NCBI RefSeq assembly: GCF_038396845.1
Contig: NZ_CP151587.1
Location: 248,001-312,000, forward strand
Direction of reading: 5' to 3'
DNA: 64,000 nucleotides
Origin: Gymnodinialimonas sp. 57CJ19
GTDB taxonomy: Bacteria; Pseudomonadota; Alphaproteobacteria; Rhodobacterales; Rhodobacteraceae
Of this stretch, positions 3,863 through 10,077 are shown piece by piece; the stretch's first letter is position 1, and each line of letters starts with the position of its first letter. Made by a program: the position numbers and the translations under genes. The notes below the pieces were generated by a model. It searched no databases. It was given only the letters and a program-made list of their open reading frames with translations, and was not told the origin of the DNA.

Positions 3863-3892
3863 TGTGATCACGGAAAATTTTGTGTGATCACA
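3863..3892. promoter_or_regulatory. Tandem TGTGATCACA palindromes upstream of sucC
   Basis: TGTGATCACG (3863-3872) and TGTGATCACA (3883-3892) have centres 20 bp apart, two helical turns, in the region between sucC (minus) and the glycosyltransferase (plus). The same ten-base palindrome occurs as a pair 21 bp apart upstream of sdhC. This looks like an operator for a dimeric regulator binding cooperatively. The GT..AC ends resemble GntR/FadR-type operators, but the regulator is unknown. Confidence 0.6.
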
Positions 3893-3999
3893 AAACTTGC
3901 CCAACCGCCTCGTTCAACCCGACTCACCCGGCGGCAGAGGCTTGCACGCCCCTGCGATCCGGCGCAATCTTGGGCCTCAGCGCAAGATGCGGGGCATTC

Positions 4000-5016
4000 A
4001 TGCCAGACAATATCCGTTGGGGAATCGTGGCGACGGTGGCAGAGCCCGCCCCCCTCGTTATGGCTTTCGTGGCCCACCATCTGTCCCTTGGCGCCTCTGA
4101 AATTCACATCTACCTGGATGACCCCCATGACCCGGTGGCCGACATTCTGGAATGGCTTCCCCCCGTTCATGTCACCCGCTGCGACATGGGCTATTGGCGC
4201 AATACGGTGACGTGGAAACCCAAACGTCACAATAACCGACAATCCGCCAACGCCACACACGCCCAAAGGCAATGCAAGGTGCCGTTTCTCCTGCATTGCG
4301 ACGCCGATGAGTTCCTGCGCCCGCGCTCGGATATTGCTGCGCAACTGGCCGAGGTGCCCGAGCATCTGACCTGGACCAAGATCTTCAACCTTGAACGCGC
4401 CATGGTGCGTGGTGCTGCCCAAACCTCGATATTCGAGGGGGTGTTCAAGGTCTTCTACCAAGGTCAGTCCAGCACCCCTCTTCGCACCTCGGATATGACA
4501 CCGATGGGCTTTACCGGGCACGCAGCAGGTAAACCCTTCGTGCGCACGAAGATCGGCATGAACATCGGCATCCACGTCCCGCGCCACGGCCACATCAAGG
4601 CCCGCGTGGTGCCGCCGCATTATCCCGCAGATCAGGTGGAGCTGGTCCATTTCGACGGCATGACACCACTGCACTGGGCGGCCAAATTCGTGCGTCAGGC
4701 GGCATTGATCCCGGATCGGTTGCAACAATTGCCGCCGTTCCGCATCGCTCAATGGCACCGCATTTTCGCCTGCCTCGATGACCCGGACGCCCTGCGCGGG
4801 CTCTATGAAGAGATCAACGGATACACCCCAGAACAGATCAACGCGCTGGAGGATGACGGTTATATTACCCGCGACACCTTCAACCTTGGCCCCGCCTTGG
4901 AGGCGGTCTTTCCCGGACAAGCCGTGGACCTTTCGCCCGACGCCTTCGACGCCCTCCTGCGTCCCCGCGTGACGGCATGGCGCAAGATCGCGCGGCGCAA
5001 TGGCGTGGATATCTAG
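4000..5016 (+). CDS. Glycosyltransferase family 2-like protein
   Basis: A 338-residue protein of the Glyco_tranf_2_4 type, probably transferring a sugar to a surface glycan. It opens with WGIVATVAEPAPLVMAFVAHHLSLGASEIHIYLDDPHDP, the typical nucleotide-sugar-binding start, and has the metal-binding DxD motif as LLHCDADEFLRP near residue 102. The frame is open upstream to 3880, but that part overlaps the paired palindromes and lacks family similarity; ATG 4000 has GGGG seven bases upstream and begins just before the conserved domain. A sulfotransferase follows 62 bases on, so the two may jointly decorate a polysaccharide. Donor and acceptor cannot be read from the sequence. Confidence 0.8.
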   Translation: MPDNIRWGIVATVAEPAPLVMAFVAHHLSLGASEIHIYLDDPHDPVADILEWLPPVHVTRCDMGYWRNTVTWKPKRHNNRQSANATHAQRQCKVPFLLHCDADEFLRPRSDIAAQLAEVPEHLTWTKIFNLERAMVRGAAQTSIFEGVFKVFYQGQSSTPLRTSDMTPMGFTGHAAGKPFVRTKIGMNIGIHVPRHGHIKARVVPPHYPADQVELVHFDGMTPLHWAAKFVRQAALIPDRLQQLPPFRIAQWHRIFACLDDPDALRGLYEEINGYTPEQINALEDDGYITRDTFNLGPALEAVFPGQAVDLSPDAFDALLRPRVTAWRKIARRNGVDI

Positions 5017-5078
5017 GTGTCTTTACGACCGTCCTTCGTGCCGCGTAGGGTGGCGAAAAGTCACTAAGGACAACGCCG

Positions 5079-5693
5079 ATGCCTCTGGCGAGAATTGCCG
5101 ACAAGCTCCTTTTCTTCGCGCATATCCCCAAAACCGGCGGGTCGAGCGTTGAAACCTACCTAGACGCCAAGGGCGCGGTCGCGCTGCGCTTCAAGCGCCG
5201 TCTTGGTTGGTCGGAAACCACGGCGCAGCATATGGAGGCGCGGGTCCATACGCGCCTTGTCCCGGACGGTTTTTACGATGAAAGCTTTGCGGTCCTGCGT
5301 GACCCGGTTGCGCGCATGGTGAGCGAGTATCGCTATCGGCTGGACCGATATGAAGGCCAGCGCAGTTTCGAAGATTGGGTGCGCGCGGCCTTTGATGCCT
5401 ATGGCCGCGACGGCTACGTCTACGACAACCACATCCGCCCGCAGGCCGAGTTTCTGCGGCCCGGCATGGTCTTGTTCCGGCTAGAAATGGGAATGGATGC
5501 GGTCTTCGATTGGGTCGATGCCGTGACCGGAACTGAAACAGCATCCCGGGAAATCTGGGAAAAACGCTCAACCGCCAACAAGATCGAGGTGAGCGACAGA
5601 ATTCGCGATGAAATCATCGCGTTCTACAAGGCTGATTACGCGATATTGGATGCCATGACGGAAAACGGCCGGGCGTTGAACCCGGCCGCATAA
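5079..5693 (+). CDS. Sulfotransferase family protein
   Basis: A 204-residue protein with the PAPS-binding P-loop FFAHIPKTGGSSVETYL at residues 11-27, the hallmark of the Sulfotransfer_2 family, and the downstream FAVLRDPVARMVSEYRYRL block (3'-phosphate binding serine/arginine region, about 70-88). It would transfer sulfate from PAPS to a carbohydrate or other hydroxyl acceptor. Many marine bacteria carry such short sulfotransferases beside glycosyltransferases, as here. The ATG at 5079 follows AAGGA at normal spacing. A strong hairpin overlaps its stop codon. Confidence 0.85.
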   Translation: MPLARIADKLLFFAHIPKTGGSSVETYLDAKGAVALRFKRRLGWSETTAQHMEARVHTRLVPDGFYDESFAVLRDPVARMVSEYRYRLDRYEGQRSFEDWVRAAFDAYGRDGYVYDNHIRPQAEFLRPGMVLFRLEMGMDAVFDWVDAVTGTETASREIWEKRSTANKIEVSDRIRDEIIAFYKADYAILDAMTENGRALNPAA

Positions 5694-5727
5694 GTTTTGA
5701 AGGCGGGCTGGCAGCCCACCAACTTAT
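5666..5727 (+). terminator. Stem-loops at the sulfotransferase/mdh convergence
   Basis: CGGCCGGG (5666-5673) pairs perfectly with CCCGGCCG (5681-5688), overlapping the end of the sulfotransferase gene and followed by CATAAGTTTT. A second inverted repeat, GGGCT/AGCCC at 5705-5717 flanked by ATAAGTT (5690-5696) and AACTTAT (5721-5727), lies between the convergent stops. Together they could end transcription from both sides. Confidence 0.55.
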
Positions 5728-8791: not shown

Positions 8792-8794
8792 ACC

Positions 8795-8998
8795 ATGTTG
8801 ATCTACAGACTACTCACCGAAGATGACACATCCGCTTTCTGCCACAAGGTGTCAGACGCCATTGCCAAGGGGTGGAGCCTTCATGGCGACCCCACCATGT
8901 CCTTCGACGCGGCGCGCGGCGTGATGCGCTGCGGGCAAGCCGTGGTGAAGGATATCGACACGCCTTATTCGCCGGATATGAAGCTGGGACAGCAATAA
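8795..8998 (+). CDS. DUF1737 domain protein
   Basis: A 67-residue protein beginning MLIYRLLTEDDTSAFCHKVSDAIAKGWSLHGDP, the DUF1737 pattern of short, probably cytosolic proteins of unknown function. It follows the NnrU gene by three bases and its stop TAA overlaps the mch ATG (8998), so it is embedded between two ethylmalonyl-CoA pathway genes. Any functional link to mch is inference from this tight coupling. Confidence 0.85.
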   Translation: MLIYRLLTEDDTSAFCHKVSDAIAKGWSLHGDPTMSFDAARGVMRCGQAVVKDIDTPYSPDMKLGQQ

Positions 8999-10029
8999 TG
9001 TCAAAGACGAACCAGGGCTATTTCTTCGAGGATTACCGCGTTGGGCAGGTGTTGAAACATGCCACGCCGCGCACGCTGCATGATGGAGATGTGGCGATGT
9101 ATCAAGCGCTCTACGGCCCTCGGTTCGCGCTGCAATCGTCTTGGGATTTTGCCGCGCCTGGCAGCAGCCTGCGCAACCCTGTGATGGATGACCTGATCAC
9201 GTTCCACACGGTATTTGGCAAAACCGTCCCTGATATCTCGCTGAACGCTGTGGCCAATCTGGGCTATGCCGAGGGGCGGTTTCTGGCACGGGTGGAATCG
9301 GGCGACACGATCCACGCGGTATCAGAAGTCATTGGCCTGAAAGAGAATTCTAACGGCAAGACAGGCATTGTCTGGGTCCGTACTCGCGGGTTCTCCAATT
9401 TCGATGTGCCGGTGCTGGAGTACGTCCGCTGGGTCATGGTGCGAAAACGCGACGCGGCCGCCCCTGCCCCGGAAACCGTCGTGCCAGACTTGACGCAGGT
9501 CGTGGCGGCGGAAGAGCTGCACGTGCCAGAAACGTTGGACTGGTCTAACTACGATTTCGCCGCTGCCGGAGAGCCGCACCGCCACGGCGATTATGCCGTC
9601 GGTGAGATCATTGACCACGTCGATGGCGTGACCCTGACCGACCCCGAACATATGATGGCCACACGCCTGTGGCAGAACACGGCCAAGGTACATTTCGACG
9701 TCACCGCGCGCCCCGACGGCAATCGTCTGATCTATGGTGGCCACATCATCAGCCTCGCCCGGTCCTTGTCGTTCAATGGCTTGGCCAACGCGCAGCTTCT
9801 GGCCGCAATCAACGGCGGCGCTCACGCCAATCCTGCCATGGCGGGTGACACGATCCGGGCTTGGTCCGAAGTTCTCGACACCGCGCCCACATCCACCCCC
9901 CACGTAGGCGCCCTGCGCCTGCGTCTTGTCGCCACCAAAGGCGAGGCCGGCGCATTGCGCGGCGTGGACGGGAAATACCTGCCCGAGGTGTTGTTGGATC
10001 TGGACCACTGGGCGTTGCTTCCGACCTAG
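8998..10029 (+). CDS. mch: Mesaconyl-CoA hydratase (beta-methylmalyl-CoA dehydratase)
   Basis: Hydrates mesaconyl-C1-CoA to erythro-beta-methylmalyl-CoA in the ethylmalonyl-CoA pathway. The 343-residue protein starts MSKTNQGYFFEDYRVGQVLKHATPRTLHDGDVAMYQALYGPRFALQSS and has two MaoC-like hot-dog halves; the second includes HRHGDYAVGEIIDHVDGVTLTDPEHMMATRLWQNTAKVHFD, the family's hydratase core. Length and motifs match Rhodobacterales Mch. The frame opens at 8872, but that part overlaps DUF1737 in another frame; the ATG at 8998 is coupled to that gene's stop. The context (mcl2 upstream, sdh operon downstream) is as in R. sphaeroides. Confidence 0.93.
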   Translation: MSKTNQGYFFEDYRVGQVLKHATPRTLHDGDVAMYQALYGPRFALQSSWDFAAPGSSLRNPVMDDLITFHTVFGKTVPDISLNAVANLGYAEGRFLARVESGDTIHAVSEVIGLKENSNGKTGIVWVRTRGFSNFDVPVLEYVRWVMVRKRDAAAPAPETVVPDLTQVVAAEELHVPETLDWSNYDFAAAGEPHRHGDYAVGEIIDHVDGVTLTDPEHMMATRLWQNTAKVHFDVTARPDGNRLIYGGHIISLARSLSFNGLANAQLLAAINGGAHANPAMAGDTIRAWSEVLDTAPTSTPHVGALRLRLVATKGEAGALRGVDGKYLPEVLLDLDHWALLPT

Positions 10030-10046
10030 GCAGCTCTCTGAGGAAA

Positions 10047-10077
10047 TGTGATCACAGCAATCTCAGCTGTGATCACA
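10047..10077. promoter_or_regulatory. Tandem TGTGATCACA palindromes upstream of sdhC
   Basis: Two perfect copies of TGTGATCACA (10047-10056 and 10068-10077) have centres 21 bp apart, between the mch stop and sdhC. They lie about 40-70 bases upstream of a TATAAT (10114-10119) that could be the sdh -10 box. The same paired arrangement occurs upstream of sucC, suggesting shared control of two TCA operons by one regulator. Confidence 0.65.

Follow-up and report, generated by a model that had tools for sequence, protein, structure and literature searches.

Paired palindromes upstream of the suc and sdh operons of Gymnodinialimonas sp. 57CJ19 as probable operators of the GntR-type regulator AkgR

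The DNA considered here is a stretch of 64,000 nucleotides, hereafter the window, from the 3,861,607-base genome of Gymnodinialimonas sp. 57CJ19 (assembly GCF_038396845.1; contig NZ_CP151587.1, positions 248,001-312,000). It carries genes of the tricarboxylic acid (TCA) cycle in two transcription units, the suc operon and sdhCDAB, and upstream of each lies a pair of short palindromes with the sequence TGTGATCACA (Table 1). We propose that all four palindromes are operators of AkgR, and that two AkgR dimers at each promoter couple the activation of suc and sdh; the evidence makes this very probable. Both the regulator and its motif are already known from publications on Rhodobacter sphaeroides, a point that a preliminary description of this locus had missed. 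The sites, their phasing, targets and conservation, their co-occurrence with akgR, and the site at akgR's own promoter are all features of the sequences themselves.

Table 1. Operator sites, putative core promoters and genes of the suc and sdh operons (coordinates in the window)
Feature	Coordinates	Strand	Description
suc operator, promoter-proximal site	3863..3872	-	TGTGATCACG on + strand; one mismatch to TGTGATCACA, core GTGATCAC exact
suc operator, distal site	3883..3892	-	exact TGTGATCACA; 20 bp from proximal suc site
sdh operator, distal site	10047..10056	+	exact TGTGATCACA
sdh operator, promoter-proximal site	10068..10077	+	exact TGTGATCACA; 21 bp from distal sdh site
putative suc core promoter	3787..3816	-	-35-like TTCCAT 3816-3811, -10-like TTACGT 3792-3787 (weak match)
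putative sdh core promoter	10136..10163	+	-35 GTGACT 10136-10141, -10 TATTGA 10158-10163
sucC, first suc operon gene	2559..3752	-	start 3752; NCBIfam succinate-CoA ligase beta, above cut-off
sucD	49..930	-	NCBIfam succinate-CoA ligase alpha, above cut-off
sdhC, first gene of sdhCDAB	10221..10604	+	NCBIfam succinate dehydrogenase cytochrome b556 subunit, above cut-off
sdhA	10998..12830	+	NCBIfam TIGR01816, above cut-off
sdhB	14022..14816	+	NCBIfam NF004616, above cut-off

Paired sites in the window and the genome

The observation of four palindromes, made in the preliminary description, is confirmed: three copies are exact, the fourth has a single mismatch, and the spacings of 20 base pairs (bp) at suc and 21 bp at sdh follow from the coordinates. 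The core word GTGATCAC is exact at every one of the four. With up to one mismatch allowed, TGTGATCACA occurs seven times in the window, compared with 1.42 expected (standard deviation 1.07; maximum of 6 in 100 shuffles). Across the genome there are four exact copies and 52 places at one mismatch or fewer. Three of the exact copies are those at the suc and sdh promoters, and the fourth (genome position 667121) falls within a 438-codon frame. Searched over the whole genome, the exact pair GTGATCAC-N10..14-GTGATCAC is confined to the suc and sdh upstream regions.

A survey of single sites covered the seven places in the window and 23 others among the 52, with neighbouring genes named for the copy at genome position 1145872 only. 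Against crude frame predictions, 18 of the 23 are intragenic and five apparently intergenic. The copy at 1145872 (L054:1073-1082), with the sequence TGTGATCACG, is flanked on one side by a LuxR-type (autoinducer-binding) gene and on the other by an autoinducer-synthase gene, the two lying close together; it may be a chance occurrence or a quorum-sensing box. The suggestion that mdh is also among the targets did not hold in the window: no site with one mismatch or fewer lies upstream of its mdh, which we rejected as a target here.

Conservation and targets of the pair across the family

To follow the pair through the family, we used 198 genomes, one per genus, and defined a pair as two copies of GTGATCAC with spacings of 18-22 bp allowed. 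It is present in 175 of the 198, most of which hold exactly two pairs; the reversed-pattern control gave 0. In a sample of the class, all five genomes of the family have the pair versus five of 284 others.

Targets were examined for 70 pairs fetched from 36 pair-bearing genomes, among the matches listed. Thirty-five lie upstream of sucC, 31 upstream of sdhC, one upstream of sucA, and three beside no query gene, so that the expected relation of the pairs to suc and sdh in relatives is borne out at sucC or sdhC in 66 of 70. The spacers are likewise kept, as the preliminary description had predicted. All 67 suc, sdh and sucA pairs fall at 20-21 bp within the wider range allowed (21 bp in 61; 20 bp in six), and sucC begins 97-118 bp from the pair in 28 of 35 cases and farther away in seven. 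Among the three off-query pairs, one lies upstream of fumC (genome G042) and two, both with 18-bp spacing, lie inside long frames of G044 (the COX1 frame of L013 and a 593-codon frame of L190).

These counts bear on a further alternative, that the palindromes are CRP- or FNR-type sites or a product of chance, which we regard as exceedingly improbable. CRP and FNR half-sites are separated by a spacer of several bases. TGTGA and TCACA do resemble CRP half-sites, but here they abut without any spacer; we therefore rejected this assignment, as the preliminary description had done for CRP. Moreover, excerpts from PMC4344238 state that no proteins analogous to CRP are predicted in R. sphaeroides. 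A chance origin was rejected on the shuffles and the genome counts, and is excluded by the 175 pair-bearing genomes against none under the reversed pattern.

Several variants of the arrangement were recorded. Pairs of 19 bp in G189 and of 18 bp in G135 were also detected. Three exact copies of GTGATCAC at 21-bp steps precede sucC in two genera only (G135 and G191; L267:1501-1550 and L268:1501-1550), and a third site was rejected as a general feature. As a negative control, 31 fumC upstream regions yielded a pair only in G042 (21-bp spacing; L014:1501-1529) and a single site only in G039, and fumC of Gymnodinialimonas sp. 57CJ19 has neither upstream. We rejected fumC as a general target and read the G042 pair as the capture of another TCA gene. 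In the five pair-bearing genomes outside the family, no suc or sdh gene was found within about 1.5 kilobases (kb) per side of the pair (a shorter stretch in L219). The pair in L219 (992-1819), from another family, is followed about 180 bp downstream by a GntR gene whose product is 30% identical to AkgR; the same word would here be used by a relative of AkgR.

AkgR and its co-occurrence with the pair

The preliminary description had called for a common TCA regulator of the GntR/FadR type encoded outside the window, and both parts of this agree with our results. None of the 16 GntR-domain hits in the genome falls within 248001-312000, and akgR (protein P0001; genome 237968-238615) lies about 10 kb beyond the left edge of the window, where its neighbours are lpd, sucB and sucA. 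P0001 combines an N-terminal GntR winged-helix domain (PF00392, 48.1 bits, cut-off 27; residues 16-67) with a C-terminal FCD ligand-binding domain (PF07729, 74.3 bits, cut-off 24.3; residues 86-205), which makes it a member of the FCD (FadR-type) branch of the GntR superfamily. Its FCD residues Asn137, His141, His184 and Asp206 are conserved among 81 aligned AkgR sequences, the three His/Asp positions in all 81; these four may represent a modified form of the metal/ligand site usual in FCD domains. The best relative of solved structure by sequence is McbR of Escherichia coli (4p9f; E-value 3.1e-21), also of the GntR type, a distant similarity only; to our knowledge, McbR is not a TCA regulator.

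Presence of the pair tracks presence of the regulator. With a strong orthologue defined by an E-value below 1e-50, akgR is found in 172 of the 175 genomes with a pair and five of the 23 without (Fisher p = 2.7e-18, not to be taken literally because the genomes are related by descent). Restricting the set to genomes of 90% completeness or more and no more than 5% contamination gives 155 of 157 and two of 17. For L043, a GntR protein of the same genome used as a control, just 12 of the 198 genomes hold a strong orthologue. Three of the five pairless genomes with a strong orthologue are 71-76% complete; the others are G155 and G040, in which the pairs at sucC and sdhC are both present, each with a single mismatch. 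Genomes that lack both exact pairs and a strong akgR include G004, G014, G017, G029, G048, G059, G083, G101, G102, G109, G167, G172, G194 and other members of the family.

The position of akgR varies. It adjoins lpd in six of eight fetched stretches and directly follows sdhB in G051; in many Ruegeria- and Phaeobacter-type loci, it is not beside lpd within 10 kb.

The comparable system is that of R. sphaeroides RSP_0981, which we take to be AkgR, and Imam et al. 2015 reportedly demonstrated activation by AkgR in that species. In excerpts from PMC4344238, RSP_0981 is a GntR protein and the predicted regulator of sucCD, sdh and the 2-oxoglutarate dehydrogenase genes; the locus tags given there (sdh RSP_0974-6, GntR RSP_0981) fit the G051 order, with akgR after sdhB. 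The parts of PMC6365646 available give GTGATCAC as the AkgR motif and term AkgR of R. sphaeroides a transcriptional activator. The published prediction for suc and sdh, taken together with this motif, points to an AkgR regulon in the relative of Roseicyclus studied here, in which we find the operator word GTGATCAC, targets at sucCD and sdh, and a regulator gene near suc and sdh.

Our species is a different one, and to the published regulator and motif we add the twin-site phasing at 20-21 bp throughout the family, core promoters about one turn apart, the akgR self-site with its loss in one clade, the rare capture of fumC, and triple arrays. Literature searches on the motif and regulator, with Imam et al. 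2015 outside their scope, returned no text on the paired geometry, its family-wide extent or the self-site. Similarly, a paper-title search with TGTGATCACA and GTGATCAC plus the regulator gave nothing on the motif among the matches listed.

Two other published regulators invite comparison. PS417_07240 of the Pseudomonas simiae deoxyribonate cluster is GntR-like, 32% identical to AkgR and has GTGATCAC as its proposed site, but the target proposed for it in PMC6365646 is the deoxyribonate cluster to which it belongs, not suc and sdh, and it would act there by way of a single palindrome located at -47 to -40 relative to the start codon. CceR (RSP_1663) of R. sphaeroides is also predicted to control central carbon metabolism, including sdh and mdh; according to excerpts from PMC4344238 it belongs instead to the LacI family, with a GTT-N6-8-AAC type motif unlike the sites described here.

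A site at akgR's own promoter

We next consider akgR's own promoter, in the best 80 of 395 loci from a scan of named genomes; R. sphaeroides is not among these 80. In 64 of them, the 130 bases around the start of akgR contain GTGATCAC, compared with about 1.06 expected. The word TTGAC precedes this self-site by 5-25 bases in 57 of the 64 loci, and by exactly 13 bases in 52. If TTGAC serves as the -35 element, the self-site covers the end of the spacer and the beginning of the -10, and binding should therefore block the promoter. In most of the family, AkgR bound at this single site would thus repress akgR and provide negative feedback.

The akgR gene of Gymnodinialimonas sp. 57CJ19 has no self-site within 130 bases around its start, and the preceding frame ends no more than about 10 bases from that start. 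Of the 11 best-matching loci (L098-L108, many named Roseicyclus), 10 are likewise without the self-site, as are six others. Autoregulation of akgR has apparently been lost in the clade to which the window belongs.

Core promoters and a model of coupled activation

Aligning the sequences beyond the proximal site, with shifts tolerated, yielded one consensus per operon. For sdh (32 promoters), it reads CGTGACa..ggc..AAAA..cG.TA..Aa at 18.3 bits, versus a mean of 7.6 and a maximum of 8.0 in 10 shuffled sets; for suc (36 promoters), tTT ... GTGCcAatAc at 12.7 bits, versus 8.4 and 9.0 in 10 shuffled sets. For both operons the search was centred on positions picked by eye and run with 12 random starts for the real sets and three for the shuffled ones. 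The putative -10 lies about 81 bases beyond the proximal site at sdh and about 70-71 bases at suc, which suggests that the two core promoters are offset by roughly one helical turn. A TATAAT-like word at 10114-10119 was rejected as the sdh -10, being off the position conserved in relatives. An imperfect inverted repeat, CCCGTTCCATTGTTGGGACGGG, spans 3799-3820 (- strand) over the putative suc -35 and spacer; none was seen by eye in aligned relatives.

In the model that we favor, each palindrome would bind one AkgR dimer, and the two dimers would stand two helix turns apart on the same face of the DNA, approximately 90 and 110 bp ahead of the predicted transcription starts, possibly acting cooperatively. 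From this upstream position they would assist RNA polymerase at both operons. The joint rise in transcription of suc and sdhCDAB would then set the 2-oxoglutarate-to-fumarate part of the TCA cycle as one unit.

Alternatively, AkgR could bind the pairs but act on suc and sdh as a repressor that a TCA metabolite releases. Repression lifted by a ligand is found in many GntR/FCD proteins, and the single akgR self-site does overlap a promoter. The suc and sdh pairs, however, lie well upstream of the putative -35 elements rather than over them, and the published description of AkgR in R. sphaeroides is that of an activator (PMC6365646, in part); we consider repression unlikely.

Several observations weigh against coupled activation by AkgR. 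G155 has the orthologue and no pair, and pairs without a strong orthologue occur in G096 (77% complete), G019 (91% complete, 210 contigs) and G114 (100% complete by tool estimate, 320 contigs). The argument from the self-site is drawn from relatives, since akgR of this genome lacks one. The putative suc -10 is weak in the window, where the letters fit the consensus poorly. P0001 is presumed to be the orthologue of RSP_0981, and AkgR binding and activation in this species, though likely, are argued from sequence and the R. sphaeroides papers. Finally, co-occurrence was run for two of the 16 GntR hits, akgR and, as the one control, L043.

This last point, together with the seeming use of the same word by related GntR proteins (PMC6365646, in part; L219), would allow a different DNA-binding protein to recognize the pairs, with akgR conserved for other reasons. 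We find this very improbable given the self-site at most akgR loci examined, the position of akgR next to suc genes, and the published AkgR motif (PMC6365646, in part).

Returning to coupled activation by AkgR, we further propose, with confidence evenly divided, a fixed module throughout the family: two (rarely three) GntR dimers at two-turn steps co-activate suc and sdh, the self-site closes a negative feedback loop, and fumC can be captured, as in one genus. The same even balance applies to the corollary that one short word serves as activator or repressor site according to copy number and position, with the sdh sites about one turn further out than those of suc. The survey extends a result from one model species to a rule for a large bacterial family: almost all genera sampled seem to control the 2-oxoglutarate-to-fumarate segment through one regulator with one rigid promoter geometry. 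The family also provides natural experiments: lineages without a strong akgR orthologue are mostly without paired sites, and in one clade it is chiefly the self-site that has disappeared.

Gene order around the sites

Within the fetched stretches, the order in relatives is akgR, lpd, (sucB), sucA, sucD, sucC, pair, mdh, mcl, mch, pair, sdh. In the window, mdh and sucC are separated by two oppositely oriented genes (3988-5693, +), one glycosyltransferase-like (PF13704) and the other sulfotransferase-like (PF03567); where the stretch from a relative includes both mdh and sucC, the interval between them measures from a few hundred bases up to about 2,300. Genes for an HpcH/HpaI lyase (malyl-CoA-lyase-like) and a mesaconyl-CoA-hydratase-like protein lie between mdh and sdh (7296-10029, +), as they do in several relatives, and link the TCA cluster to acyl-CoA assimilation.

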